DNA of 64,000 nt, from the NCBI RefSeq assembly GCF_036227565.1, contig NZ_CP109460.1, positions 62,001-126,000 on the forward strand, given 5' to 3'. Within the stretch, counting starts at the first letter, position 1, and every line of letters begins with the position of its first letter. The translations under genes and the position numbers were made by a program. Positions 20,064 through 27,654 of the stretch are shown piece by piece. The DNA is from Streptomyces sp. NBC_01454. GTDB lineage: Bacteria; Actinomycetota; Actinomycetes; Streptomycetales; Streptomycetaceae. The notes below the pieces were generated by a model. The model had not been told where the DNA came from. It made no database searches and saw nothing but the letters and a program-made list of their open reading frames with translations.

Positions 20064-20639
20064 ATGTCGGTACGTGAACGCAAGGAACGCGAGCGGGCCA
20101 ACCGCCACCAGCTGATCGTCTCCACCGCCCGCGAACTCGCCGAGAGCGACGGCTGGGACGCGGTCACCACACGCCGGCTCGCCGAACGGATCGAGTACAG
20201 CCAGCCCGTGCTCTACAGCCACTTCCGGGGGAAGAAGGAGATCCTGGGAGCGGTCGCGCTGGAAGGGTTCGCCGAGCTGACGACAGCGCTGCGCGCCGCG
20301 GCGCCGAAGGGACCCGCCGACCGTGCGACGGTGGCCGCGCTGGCCCGCGCCTACACCGACTTCGCCACGGACAACCCCGCGCTGTACGACGCGATGTTCA
20401 GCCTCGACAACGGCCTCCCCTTCGCCGACGAAACCACGCCGGCGCCGCTGCACGAGGCGTTCGGGGTGTTGCAGGACCATCTCGCCGACCACGCGCACCC
20501 CGATGAACCGGGGCTGTTCGTCGAGACGTTCTGGGCGGCGCTGCACGGACTGGTCACCCTCACCCGCGCCGGGCGGCTGCCCGCCGAGCGGGTGTCCGAC
20601 CGCCTCACGCTCCTGGTGGACCGTTTCGTTTCCCGCTAG
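20064..20639 (+). CDS. TetR-family transcriptional repressor
   Basis: The 191-residue protein has an N-terminal TetR helix-turn-helix: LIVSTARELAESDGWDAVTTRRLAERIEYSQPVLYSHFRGKKEIL (residues 13-57). An alpha-helical ligand/dimer domain follows, with a WAALHGLVTLTRAGRLP helix typical of the family. It very likely binds the paired CTAGCG palindromes just upstream and represses itself and the DUF1772 gene. The ligand is unknown. Its stop overlaps that of mqnD by four bases: a palindromic CTAG supplies TAG to both convergent genes. Confidence 0.9.
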   Translation: MSVRERKERERANRHQLIVSTARELAESDGWDAVTTRRLAERIEYSQPVLYSHFRGKKEILGAVALEGFAELTTALRAAAPKGPADRATVAALARAYTDFATDNPALYDAMFSLDNGLPFADETTPAPLHEAFGVLQDHLADHAHPDEPGLFVETFWAALHGLVTLTRAGRLPAERVSDRLTLLVDRFVSR

Positions 20640-21505
20640 CCGACGCCCGGGAAGTCCAGGGCGTCGGGAGCGACCGGCGGTACGAGGCCCTCGGCGGCGG
20701 CGCGGCCGAGCAGCTCCCGCACCGCCGCGTAGCCGTCCTCGCCGAGGGCCGCGGTGTAGTCGTTCACATACAGTCCGATGTGCTGCTCGATCACGTCCGG
20801 GGCCATCTCCTGGGCATGTTCCAGGACGTAGGGCCGGGATGTCGAGGGGTTGTCCCAGGCGAAGCGGACGGAGTCGGCCGCGGCGCGGGCCACCGCCCGC
20901 AGCTGCTCCTCCCCGAGGTCCCGTCGGGCGACGATCGCCCCGAGCGGGATCGGGCGGCCGCTGCCGGCCTCCCATTCCTCGCCCATGTCGGCGAGGCGGT
21001 GCAGCCCGTACTGCTGGTAGGTGAAGCGGGCCTCGTGGATGACCAGGCCCGCGTCGACCGCGCCGTCGCGGACCGCGGGCATGATCTCGTGGAAGGGCAT
21101 CACCACGACGTCGCCCACTCCGCCCGGCACGGCCCGCGCCGCCCACAGGCGGAACAGCAGATACGCGGTCGAGCGCACGCTGGGCACCGCGACGCTGCGC
21201 CCGGCCAGCCGCTCCGGGCCGGCGGGACCGTCCTCGGGCCGGGTGAGCACCAGCGGCCCGCACCCGTGGCCCAGCGCGCCGCCGCACGGCAGCAGGGCGT
21301 ACTCGTCGAGCACGTACGGCAGGGCCGCGTAGGAGATCTTCAGCAGATCCCCGGCGCCGCGTTCCGCGAGGCCGTTGGTGACGTCGATGTCCGCGATGGT
21401 CACCGTGAGTCCGGGCGCCCTCGGGAGCAGGCCGTGGGACCAGGCGTGGAAGGTGAAGGTGTCATTCGGACATGGTGAGTGGGCGATCGTCAGCCGCTGG
21501 GCCAT
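20636..21505 (-). CDS. mqnD: 1,4-dihydroxy-6-naphthoate synthase MqnD
   Basis: The 289-residue protein starts at the ATG at 21505. It carries the MqnD/MqnA-fold marker SPCPNDTFTFHAWSHG near the N-terminus, then ADIDVTNGLAERG and LLKISYAALPYV, and later VIHEARFTYQQYGL and RPIPLGAIVARRDL. MqnD releases 1,4-dihydroxy-6-naphthoate from cyclic dehypoxanthinyl futalosine, the third-last kind of intermediate on the futalosine route to menaquinone. Here it is set in a polyketide cluster and is divergent from the PaaK-like/mqnE operon, with a strong LuxR-type box between them. This suggests dedicated production of the naphthoate as a building block. Confidence 0.93.
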   Translation of the reverse strand: MAQRLTIAHSPCPNDTFTFHAWSHGLLPRAPGLTVTIADIDVTNGLAERGAGDLLKISYAALPYVLDEYALLPCGGALGHGCGPLVLTRPEDGPAGPERLAGRSVAVPSVRSTAYLLFRLWAARAVPGGVGDVVVMPFHEIMPAVRDGAVDAGLVIHEARFTYQQYGLHRLADMGEEWEAGSGRPIPLGAIVARRDLGEEQLRAVARAAADSVRFAWDNPSTSRPYVLEHAQEMAPDVIEQHIGLYVNDYTAALGEDGYAAVRELLGRAAAEGLVPPVAPDALDFPGVG

Positions 21506-21584
21506 GGGTCCCCTCCGCCGGGGTTCGTTCGGGCCGCCGGCCCGGAGCTCCGGCGCCGTCCCTCCCAGGAAACCCGTTGTGGGT

Positions 21585-21600
21585 ATGGGGAATTCCCCAG
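21585..21600. promoter_or_regulatory. PAS-LuxR box, best match (mqnD / ligase-mqnE promoter)
   Basis: ATGGGGAATTCCCCAG fits CTVGGGAWWTCCCBAG at 15 of 16 positions and is nearly a perfect palindrome. It ends 150 nt before the ATG at 21750. GAGTAT follows 12 nt downstream, the position where two related promoters have CATACT. It may also serve the divergent mqnD. Confidence 0.75.
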
Positions 21601-21749
21601 AGTGGCCTCGGCGAGTATGAGAGGGGCCGCCGGTGTTGCCGCGTCGGACCGTCACCCCGGCGCCGGTCCGGCCGGGAGACGCGGGCGGCAGCCCGGCTCC
21701 CGCATGATCCGCGCGCGACTGCGGCCTTCCCGGCAGGAAAGGAACGGCG

Positions 21750-25929: not shown

Positions 25930-25930
25930 G

Positions 25931-26836
25931 TCACGTGCTGATCGCTTCGGTGCCCAGGAGCTCGACGCGGACGTCCGGCGGGAAGCCGGCCTGTCCGCCG
26001 CCGACCCGGCGGGCGAATTCCGCGATTCCGGCGAGCTGGCGCTCGCCGAGGCTGAAGTCGAGGGCGGTGGTGTAGTAGTGCTCCAGCGTCCGGGCGTCGA
26101 ACGCCTCCCACCGGGCGGCCTGTTCACAGACCTCCTTGACCTCGGTGAGGGACAGATCGCGGGACGCCAGCAGGTCCGCGTGGACGCGGCGCGCGGTCTC
26201 GGGCTCCCTGGCGAGGAAGTCCTTGCGGGCGGCGAAGACGGCGAAGACGAAGGGCAGTCCGGTCCAGTCGCGCCACATCTGGCCCAGGTCGTGCACCTGG
26301 AGGCCGAGCCGGGGCGCGTCGTGCAGGGAGGCGCGCAGCGCGGCGTCACCGATGACCACGGCCGCCCGCGCCCGCTGCATCATCGTCGCGAGGTCGGGCG
26401 GGCAGACGAAGTATTCGGGCCGGACGCCGACCGACTCGGTGAACAGCAGCTCGGCCAGCCGCACCGAGGTCCGGCTGGTGGATCCGAGCGCGACGGGTTC
26501 GCCGTCGAGCTGGTCCAGCGGGACCTGGCTGACGATCAGGCAGGACTCCACGGGGCCGTCGCTGCCCACGGCGATGCCCGGCAGTGCCACCAGTTCGTCG
26601 GCGTGCTTGAGGAATTCCATGAGGCTGATCGGCCCGATGTCGAGGGTGCCCGAGACGAGGGCGTCGCTCAGGCCGTCCGGGCTGTCCTTGCGCAGGTCCA
26701 TGTCGAGCAGACTGCCGCTCTTGGCCAGTCCCCAGAACAGGGGCAGGCAGTTGAGGAAGTCGATGTGACCGACCCTGGGCCGTCGCCCGGTGCGCGGTGC
26801 GGGCGTGGCCGACGCGGTGAGTAGCGGTTCAGGCAT
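25931..26836 (-). CDS. mqnA: Chorismate dehydratase MqnA
   Basis: The 301-residue protein is taken from the ATG at 26836 ([12 protein letters not shown]), with GGAG about 11 nt upstream. It has the MqnA marks [53 protein letters not shown] and an [12 protein letters not shown] segment. The enzyme removes water from chorismate to give 3-(1-carboxyvinyloxy)benzoate, the first committed step of the futalosine pathway. It lies 47 bp after the type II thioesterase gene and overlaps translationally with mqnC. Being in one operon with a polyketide-type thioesterase is strong context for a role in secondary metabolism. Confidence 0.94.
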
Positions 26837-26883
26837 GGCTGTCAGGGCTCCAGGGGGGCTCGGTCGGGGCAGCGGGGCGGCAC

Positions 26884-27654
26884 CTACGCATGGTGGGGAA
26901 GGGCGGTGGAGGTGAAGTGGGCGCTGAGCACGTCCATCACCTCTTTCGGTCGGTCGGCCAGGTAGAAGTGCCCGCCGGGGAAGACCTGCAGGTCGCATGC
27001 GCCGGCGGTGTGCGCGTCCCAGGACCGGGCCTCGACGAGGGACGTCTTGGGGTCGTCGTCGCCGACGAGCACGGTGACGGGGCAGCGCACGACGGCCCCG
27101 GGCTCGCTGCGGTAGGTCTCGACGGCCTTGTAGTCGCTGCGCAGCGCGGGCAGCACCATGCGCAGCATCTCCTCGTCGTCGAGGACCCGGGAGTCGGTGC
27201 CGCTCAGCGCCCGCAGCTCGGCGACGATGCCGTCGTCGTCCCGCCGGTGGACCTGCTCGTCGCGGTACGCGGACGGTGCCCGGCGCCCGGAGGCGAACAG
27301 CCGCACGGGGCCCTCCCCGTCGCGTTCCAGCCGCCGTGCCACCTCAAAGGCCACCAGTGCGCCCATGCTGTGGCCGAAGAAGGTCAGCGGCCGGTCGGTC
27401 CAGGCTCCCAGCGCCTCGGCGATCCGGTCCGCAAGGAGGCCGATGTCGTCGATGGCCGGTTCGTGGCGGCGGTCCTGCCGCCCGGGGTACTGCACGGCGA
27501 GCACGTCCACGCCGGGGCTGAGCGCGGCCGAGACGGGGTGGTAGAAGCTCGCGGAGCCGCCGGCGTGCGGGAAGCACACCAGGCGCCGGCCCGCGTCCGG
27601 GGCCGGGTGGAACCGCCGGCACCACAGGCCGTCGTCCGCAAGGGGGGAACTCAT
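26884..27654 (-). CDS. Type II thioesterase
   Basis: The 256-residue protein begins at the ATG at 27654 behind AAAGGA. It belongs to the stand-alone editing thioesterases of PKS and NRPS systems: [29 protein letters not shown], the nucleophile elbow [13 protein letters not shown], a [11 protein letters not shown] acid loop, and the catalytic His in VFPGGHFYL. Such enzymes clear wrongly loaded acyl groups from carrier proteins. It is the first gene of the operon with mqnA and mqnC, and a LuxR-type box lies 150 nt upstream. Confidence 0.93.

Follow-up and report, generated by a model that had tools for sequence, protein, structure and literature searches.

Dedicated Futalosine-Pathway Genes in a Probable PM100117-Type Macrolide Cluster of Streptomyces sp. 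NBC_01454

Futalosine-Pathway Genes in the Window

The stretch of DNA analysed here (64,000 bp, hereafter the window) belongs to Streptomyces sp. NBC_01454, whose genome comprises 9.46 Mb in 5 contigs, and corresponds to C1:62001-126000. Between positions 20636 and 26836 it carries the genes for MqnA, MqnE, MqnC and MqnD, four enzymes of the futalosine pathway to menaquinone, surrounded by genes of a polyketide cluster. Coordinates without prefix follow the window numbering, whereas those preceded by C1: follow the genome contig. MqnE and MqnC were called with curated NCBIfam cut-offs, and MqnA and MqnD, both members of PF02621, were separated by their best solved-structure matches. In this way, all four enzymes were found at the place where an earlier note on this DNA had read them. 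The block contains the following genes:

20636..21505, minus strand: MqnD homologue, 1,4-dihydroxy-6-naphthoate synthase, 289 amino acids (PF02621, 238 bits; best solved match TTHA1568, 1.5e-60), gonM4 counterpart
21750..22832, plus strand: EhpF-like adenylate-forming ligase (best solved match EhpF, 1.3e-47; PF00501 below its cut-off; 97% in S. kronopolitis)
22892..24061, plus strand: MqnE, aminofutalosine synthase, 389 amino acids (TIGR03700, 538.8 bits against a cut-off of 434.55; radical SAM motif CTASCAYC), gonM3 counterpart
24122..24427, plus strand: 4Fe-4S ferredoxin, 101 amino acids (PF13459, 1.9e-20), gonF2 counterpart
24661..25884, minus strand: MqnC, cyclic dehypoxanthinyl futalosine synthase, 407 amino acids (TIGR03699, 454.5 bits against a cut-off of 428.1; motif CVTACKFC), gonM2 counterpart
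25931..26836, minus strand: MqnA, chorismate dehydratase, 301 amino acids (PF02621; solved match SCO4506 / chorismate dehydratase, 1.2e-122), gonM1 counterpart
26884..27654, minus strand: type II thioesterase, 256 amino acids (PF00975; RifR, 2.9e-91), gonT counterpart

The genes for the thioesterase (27654 to 26884), MqnA (26836 to 25931) and MqnC (25884 to 24661) share one orientation and are separated by 47 and 46 bp for the starts chosen, in line with the single operon behind a type II thioesterase that had been proposed. The position of mqnE between an adenylate-forming ligase, which proved to be EhpF-like, and the ferredoxin gene was also as described before. The radical SAM motifs of both MqnC and MqnE are intact, and the ferredoxin is likely their electron donor. 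The EhpF-like ligase is a candidate for activating or editing an aryl acid.

A Second Set of mqn Genes

The genome contains four PF02621 matches, two within the window and two outside. The housekeeping copies were located at C1:4531855 (MqnE), C1:4542476 (MqnA), C1:4545504 (MqnC) and C1:3314480 (MqnD), so that the set in the window is neither the only nor the primary one of the genome. The earlier note had regarded a genome with no other mqn genes as fatal to its reading, and a second mqnA-mqnC-mqnD-mqnE set does exist outside the window. Its expectation that MqnB would come from a housekeeping copy was borne out as well, the single MqnB match genome-wide (C1:3313705) adjoining the housekeeping MqnD. 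A chance grouping of housekeeping genes was discarded on account of the second set found elsewhere in the genome.

Identities between the cluster copies and their own housekeeping counterparts were 68% for MqnA, 91% for MqnC, 73% for MqnD and 94% for MqnE. In a midpoint-rooted tree of 53 MqnA rows, the window copy joined those of S. sioyaensis and S. kronopolitis (100/99). The own housekeeping MqnA belonged to a 22-row clade (100/99) that did not include the window copy. Altogether, these data support the view that the cluster mqn genes are a dedicated second set.

Relatives with a Cluster-Type mqn Set

A contig scan with MqnA returned 26 loci. In S. kronopolitis (94%), the genes for thioesterase, MqnA, MqnC, ferredoxin, MqnE, ligase, MqnD, TetR regulator, anthrone oxygenase, R3 and cytochrome P450 follow one another in this order, and S. 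sioyaensis (94%) shows as much of the order of the mqn block as its 5.9-kb contig spans. Three further loci (L026-L028) carry mqnA, mqnC, mqnD and mqnE together with ferredoxin, thioesterase, KSIII and P8/SL-like genes (see below for P8 and SL). Among 392 genomes of the genus, 386 of them with an MqnA match, a second MqnA at 77-80% was found in seven genomes besides our own. All seven stretches include MqnE, ferredoxin, thioesterase and a P8-like polyketide synthase (PKS), with MqnD in six and KSIII in five; of the two stretches lacking KSIII, one is an 8.3-kb contig and the other covers 15 kb of an 18.1-kb contig.

Other groupings were also seen in the scan. Loci L033 (apparently the same as L087), L034 (L088), L037 (L091), L038, L039, L042 and L089 share the grouping MqnE-ferredoxin-MqnA, followed by MqnC where the contig reaches that far. 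The longer ones add a cytochrome P450 and a glycosyltransferase, with no MqnD in the fetched stretch, and L087 also has a sugar dehydratase, a thiamine pyrophosphate enzyme and a KSIII; four PF02621 genes were counted in the genome of L039, and likewise in that of L033. In Dactylosporangium (L029, L030, L031), MqnA-MqnC pairs lie beside PKS, sugar and thioesterase-like genes. An MqnE and a PF02621 gene are separated from the pair by about 45 kb in two of the genomes and sit on a different contig in the remaining one; a second set is present elsewhere in these genomes too.

The Macrolide PKS and the Accessory PKS P8

Seven PKS open reading frames (ORFs) of 4231, 4980, 3938, 5263, 8481, 4608 and 3644 amino acids (P1 to P7) contain 3, 3, 2, 3, 5, 3 and 2 KS domains, respectively, the first of which, in P1, is a KSQ (TAQSS). 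This amounts to a loading module plus 20 extension modules, the same number as in the gon cluster; the motif pattern left part of the AT domains unread. The first module of P3 has a DH lacking the His motif and that of P7 a methylmalonyl-type AT, both as described for gon. With a KSQ loading module of its own, this macrolide PKS would not be primed by the naphthoate. The earlier note had the PKS begin with an acyl-AMP ligase, and this holds for an eighth, accessory PKS, but not for the macrolide PKS:

56337 (first GTG) past the window end at 64000 (C1:118337-130972), plus strand: accessory PKS P8, 4211 amino acids (Pfam, motifs)

P8 opens with an acyl-AMP ligase-ACP and continues with two KS-AT-DH-KR-ACP modules. 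YASH, which we take to indicate methylmalonyl specificity, occurs in both AT domains, and the Ser-Tyr-Asn pattern in both KR domains; the HxxxGxxxxP motif is present in the first DH and missing from the second. Between the two KS-AT copies, identity is 89% at the protein and 92% at the DNA level, whereas the DH, KR and ACP of module 2 are nearer to the protein SL (57, 60 and 52%) than to those of module 1 (37, 49 and 45%). An assembly repeat was ruled out as the origin of the two modules, given that the KS-AT copies are not identical and the other domains diverge to this extent.

SL consists of DH-KR-ACP alone, without a ligase domain, and matches, with 71-73% identity, the C-terminal region of the 2428/2482-amino-acid P8-type protein of S. 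kronopolitis and S. sioyaensis. In both species, the SL slot holds a full ligase-containing P8-type protein, and the fetched stretches show one strong KSIII. From these comparisons, SL looks most like a truncated remnant in which the carrier domain is preserved. The cluster studied here has two KSIII genes, and the top two solved matches of both proteins are 7eqi (ChlB3) and 9z38 (titled 3-oxoacyl-ACP synthase), ChlB3 being first or second in each case; CerJ (3s3l) and the daunorubicin starter KSIII rank lower, all of them above classical FabH entries. Enzymes of the ChlB3/CerJ type move an acyl chain between carriers or onto a sugar, and by analogy the KSIII pair may act in acyl transfer to sugar rather than in condensation, its substrate here presumably being a naphthoquinone (NQ) acyl chain. 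The ranking of solved matches places both proteins in the wider group of ChlB3, CerJ and the daunorubicin KSIII but does not separate transferases from priming enzymes.

LuxR-Type Boxes in the Promoters

Promoters were searched for CTVGGGAWWTCCCBAG, the consensus of PimM-type LuxR boxes, with Markov resamples as controls (200 of the intergenic DNA, 30 of the whole 175-kb cluster span). Five sites with at most 2 mismatches were found in the span, all five intergenic by our gene calls even though intergenic DNA makes up only 4.3% of it; control counts had a mean of 0.03 and a maximum of 1 for intergenic DNA, and a mean of 0.57 and a maximum of 3 for the whole span. The sites are the following, with no strand assigned:

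21585..21600: PimM-type box, divergent promoter of mqnD and ligase-mqnE (1 mismatch to the consensus)
56161..56188 (starts 56161 and 56173): two overlapping PimM-type boxes, P8 promoter (2 mismatches each)
83923 and 84044 (window numbering, beyond the window end): PimM-type boxes, G1/P450 promoter (at most 2 mismatches)

Shared LuxR boxes, as the earlier note had them, are thus present at the mqnD/ligase-mqnE and P8 promoters, but upstream of the thioesterase-mqnA-mqnC operon no site with up to 2 mismatches was found, only a 3-mismatch one at 27804. Two more 2-mismatch sites lie outside the span (C1:271702 and C1:284534).

Comparison with the gon Cluster and Other Known Systems

The earlier note knew of no described cluster with this arrangement. 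However, the PM100117/PM100118 (gon) cluster of Streptomyces caniferus GUA-06-05-006A was published in 2016 (PMC4763440), and cluster 6 of Streptomyces sp. NEAU-S7GS2 in 2019 (PMC6746918). In the gon table, the genes are listed in the order gonT-gonM1-gonM2-gonF2-gonM3-gonM4-gonR3-gonCP (PMC4763440), that is, the same succession of thioesterase, mqnA, mqnC, ferredoxin, mqnE, mqnD, R3 and cytochrome P450 as in the window. The tabulated lengths in amino acids (gon/here) are 256/256 for gonT, 301/301 for gonM1, 407/407 for gonM2, 101/101 for gonF2, 387/389 for gonM3 and 291/289 for gonM4. The gon macrolide PKS proteins are given as 4219, 4939, 3959, 5234, 8461, 5238 and 3641 amino acids, with P1-P5 and P7 here within about 1% and P6 630 amino acids shorter. 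The likeness to the published description extends to the KSQ and 20 modules, the deoxysugar genes, the ligase-primed P8, the KSIII pair and an MqnB outside the cluster.

There are also differences from the published layout. P8 has two extension modules here (4211 amino acids) and one in gon (2408 amino acids), and no counterpart of gonG4 was found at the syntenic place. The EhpF-like ligase, the TetR regulator, an anthrone-oxygenase-like protein, a sulfotransferase and an adenylylsulfate (APS) kinase of our cluster are not in the gon table. EhpF-like ligases were also seen in the Streptantibioticus (L026) and Streptomyces sp. 150FB (L032) loci.

As the gon reports describe, production was abolished on loss of gonP8, gonMT, gonSL, gonS1 or gonS2, the gon product bears its NQ on a sugar, and deletion of gonM4 lowered production and gave NQ-less intermediates (PMC4763440). 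In addition, a gonE mutant built up the NQ chromophore in free form, along with the precursor that precedes propionate extension, while deletion of gonG4 was without effect (PMC5103430).

Other systems were compared by description. The NEAU-S7GS2 cluster, of the same 36-membered macrolide family as the cyphomycin cluster of Streptomyces ISID311 (PMC6355912), is described with mqnA, mqnC, mqnD and an external futalosine hydrolase (PMC6746918). Cyphomycin has a methylated naphthoquinone on a short methyl-branched acyl link, and the word menaquinone is absent from the main text of its report (PMC6355912). The futalosine pathway of S. coelicolor (MqnA-E) involves the same families and reactions, with the difference that here they are second, cluster-borne copies without MqnB. 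The cluster is therefore a variant relative of the gon arrangement and not a new kind of system. Nothing on a two-module P8 or on this strain turned up in the literature, in which no search by name was made.

Proposed Role of the Cluster mqn Genes

We conclude, with a probability of roughly 0.86, that the window holds the genes that supply NQ in a glycosylated macrolide cluster of the PM100117 type. Supply of 1,4-dihydroxy-6-naphthoate (DH6N) by the cluster mqn genes is well supported, and decoration of the macrolide with NQ is most likely the purpose of the dedicated copies. In the proposed pathway, chorismate would be converted to DH6N by MqnA, MqnE, the housekeeping MqnB (plus a deaminase), MqnC and MqnD, with electrons for the radical SAM steps presumably coming from the ferredoxin. 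DH6N would be loaded onto the P8 carrier protein by the P8 ligase and could then be extended by P8 with one or two methylmalonyl units. The KSIII proteins would hand the acyl chain on, possibly by way of the SL carrier domain, to the hydroxyl of a deoxysugar attached to the macrolide, and the ring would probably end up as a 1,4-naphthoquinone. Dedicated copies would allow the LuxR-type regulators to raise the precursor together with P8 without draining menaquinone synthesis, a rationale also offered in the gon report (PMC4763440). If both P8 modules are active, they would yield the chain naphthyl-CH=C(CH3)-CH(OH)-CH(CH3)-CO-, which exceeds the one-unit chain of cyphomycin in length.

Several points weigh against this assignment. 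Both the product and the substrate of the P8 ligase are predictions from the genes, and the comparison with gon relies on published gene order and lengths rather than on sequence alignment. SL here is without the ligase domain reported for gonSL, and no gonMT counterpart was found at the syntenic place (160 bp between G3 and S2), which leaves the ring methyl unexplained. For one KSIII protein, the daunorubicin starter KSIII outranks CerJ, so that a priming role is possible. Low production persists after gonM4 deletion, so the cluster copies are not strictly needed in gon (PMC4763440). Finally, the tree comparison suggested by the earlier note separated the copies for MqnA but not for MqnC, where a poorly resolved tree of 26 rows did not tell cluster from housekeeping copies, and the nearest row after S. 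kronopolitis was the own housekeeping MqnC.

The earlier note took DH6N to prime the polyketide itself, in an undescribed arrangement, a view to which the acyl-AMP ligase at the start of one cluster PKS gene and the similar boxes at the mqnD/mqnE and P8 promoters lend some appeal. As a starter of the main polyketide, DH6N was nevertheless rejected on the KSQ of P1 (with a module number as in gon); the NQ of the gon product sits on a sugar, in an arrangement already published (PMC4763440), and we consider this role very unlikely. What stands of that proposal is the supply of DH6N, which would prime the accessory P8 rather than the macrolide PKS, with the P8 product going to a sugar. The same note offered self-resistance, with a product that blocks menaquinone synthesis and extra mqn genes acting as insensitive copies. 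Divergent second copies of a target are a common resistance pattern in antibiotic clusters, and identities of only 68% (MqnA) and 73% (MqnD) to the own housekeeping copies would fit it, but MqnC and MqnE are 91% and 94% identical to theirs, MqnB is not duplicated, and the P8/KSIII machinery to consume the acid sits in the same cluster. Loss of gonM4 in gon, moreover, yields NQ-less intermediates at lowered production (PMC4763440). Self-resistance seems even less probable than priming of the macrolide, and it is not needed to explain the mqn genes, though it may be a side effect.

The least probable alternative is that the P8 ligase uses 3-enolpyruvylbenzoate, the product of MqnA, and that the other mqn genes merely boost menaquinone. 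It draws on Nocardia relatives in which MqnA, the only PF02621 gene, lies close to a ligase-ACP and a PKS module. In the window, however, MqnC, MqnD and MqnE have been kept, MqnC and MqnE with intact radical SAM motifs, and deletion of the mqnD gene of gon, gonM4, gives intermediates without the NQ (PMC4763440). Supply of DH6N for NQ decoration is thus the reading that we retain.

Under this reading, a respiratory cofactor pathway is linked to antibiotic assembly, a link itself published in 2016, and the cluster provides a second genetic layout for it, with two extension modules for the naphthoate and a ligase-free SL. Since the layout differs from gon in these two features, it can be used to test directly what the ligase, SL and both KSIII proteins do. 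We also put forward, tentatively and with well under even odds, that the futalosine pathway might be a tunable starter supply for actinobacterial PKS clusters, with differing lengths recruited (MqnA alone in Nocardia, yielding 3-enolpyruvylbenzoate; MqnA, MqnC, MqnD and MqnE in the window, yielding DH6N), in each case close to an accessory PKS that starts from an acyl-AMP ligase. In that scheme, P8 would have gained a second methylmalonyl module with a DH lacking the catalytic motif, giving a longer, hydroxylated NQ acyl chain than that of PM100117, maybe sulfated.

MqnA-Only Loci in Nocardia

The assemblies of N. salmonicida, N. aurea, N. transvalensis and Nocardia sp. SYP-A9097 showed one PF02621 gene each, near PKS genes, and no MqnE over the cut-off was found in any of the four, whose completeness is not stated. 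The loci are L035:9938-19759, L041:9989-17122, L043 (about 10000-19419) and L036:9977-20627. In N. salmonicida, MqnA is followed by a ligase-ACP, one KS-AT-DH-KR-ACP module and a flavin adenine dinucleotide-dependent oxidoreductase; in N. aurea, the PKS gene lies about 3.4 kb from MqnA on the opposite strand, and in N. transvalensis and SYP-A9097 the order is MqnA, ligase, PKS (tblastn). This organization suggests 3-enolpyruvylbenzoate as a putative starter acid, on which literature searches for mqnA/PKS starter units and for chorismate dehydratase/Nocardia listed nothing. If confirmed, it would be a new aromatic polyketide starter acid.

Other Genes in and around the Window

The surroundings of the cluster were annotated over C1:2001-286000. 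Further genes of the window with a gon counterpart or a possible role in the pathway are listed below:

16729..18240, plus strand: cytochrome P450 (PF00067; order as in the gon table), gonCP counterpart
18314..19432, plus strand: GFO/IDH/MocA oxidoreductase, NDP-hexose 3-ketoreductase (PF01408; order as in the gon table), gonR3 counterpart
19523..19981, minus strand: anthrone-oxygenase-like protein (PF08592, 1.2e-12; 89% in S. kronopolitis)
20064..20639, plus strand: TetR-family regulator (PF00440, PF13305; 91% in S. kronopolitis)
47516..48127, minus strand: APS kinase (PF01583, 1.1e-22; 83% in S. kronopolitis)
48129..49463, minus strand: sulfotransferase (PF13469, 5e-29; 89% in S. kronopolitis)
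49672..50460, minus strand: gonH1 counterpart by position and size, no Pfam match (87% in S. kronopolitis)
50757..52052, plus strand: sugar C-methyltransferase (PF08484, PF08421), gonCM counterpart
52358..52984, plus strand: dTDP-sugar 3,5-epimerase (PF00908, 7.2e-55), gonE counterpart
52977..53957, plus strand: NDP-sugar 4-ketoreductase (PF01370), gonR2 counterpart
54251..55911, plus strand: ABC transporter ATPase and permease (PF00005, PF01061), gonT2 and gonT1 counterparts

The anthrone-oxygenase-like protein is a candidate quinone-forming oxidase, and the sulfotransferase and APS kinase suggest that the product may be sulfated; deplelides A and B are among the sulfated natural products described (PMC7081687). 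The annotated region also includes a cold-shock protein, glycosyltransferases, an NDP-hexose 2,3-dehydratase, sugar and transporter genes, the two KSIII genes and two large LuxR regulators (C1:262844 and C1:266657).

A candidate enzyme for methylating the ring is the methyltransferase encoded at 44271-45101, which the syntenic stretch of S. kronopolitis lacks. Between the thioesterase and a nonribosomal peptide synthetase (NRPS)-like gene, a 3263-amino-acid ORF (29494-39285, plus strand) contains 29 Big_3_5 Ig-like stretches, which rule it out as a PKS, along with PKD and TIG matches; its N-terminal part is also present in S. kronopolitis and S. sioyaensis. The NRPS-like protein (adenylation and carrier domains) adjoins an S66 LD-carboxypeptidase-like gene (39391-43637; 96% and 94% in S. 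kronopolitis), and together they may form a small additional pathway embedded within the cluster. Finally, a tyrosinase and a MelC1-type cofactor protein are encoded at 9056-10619 on the minus strand.

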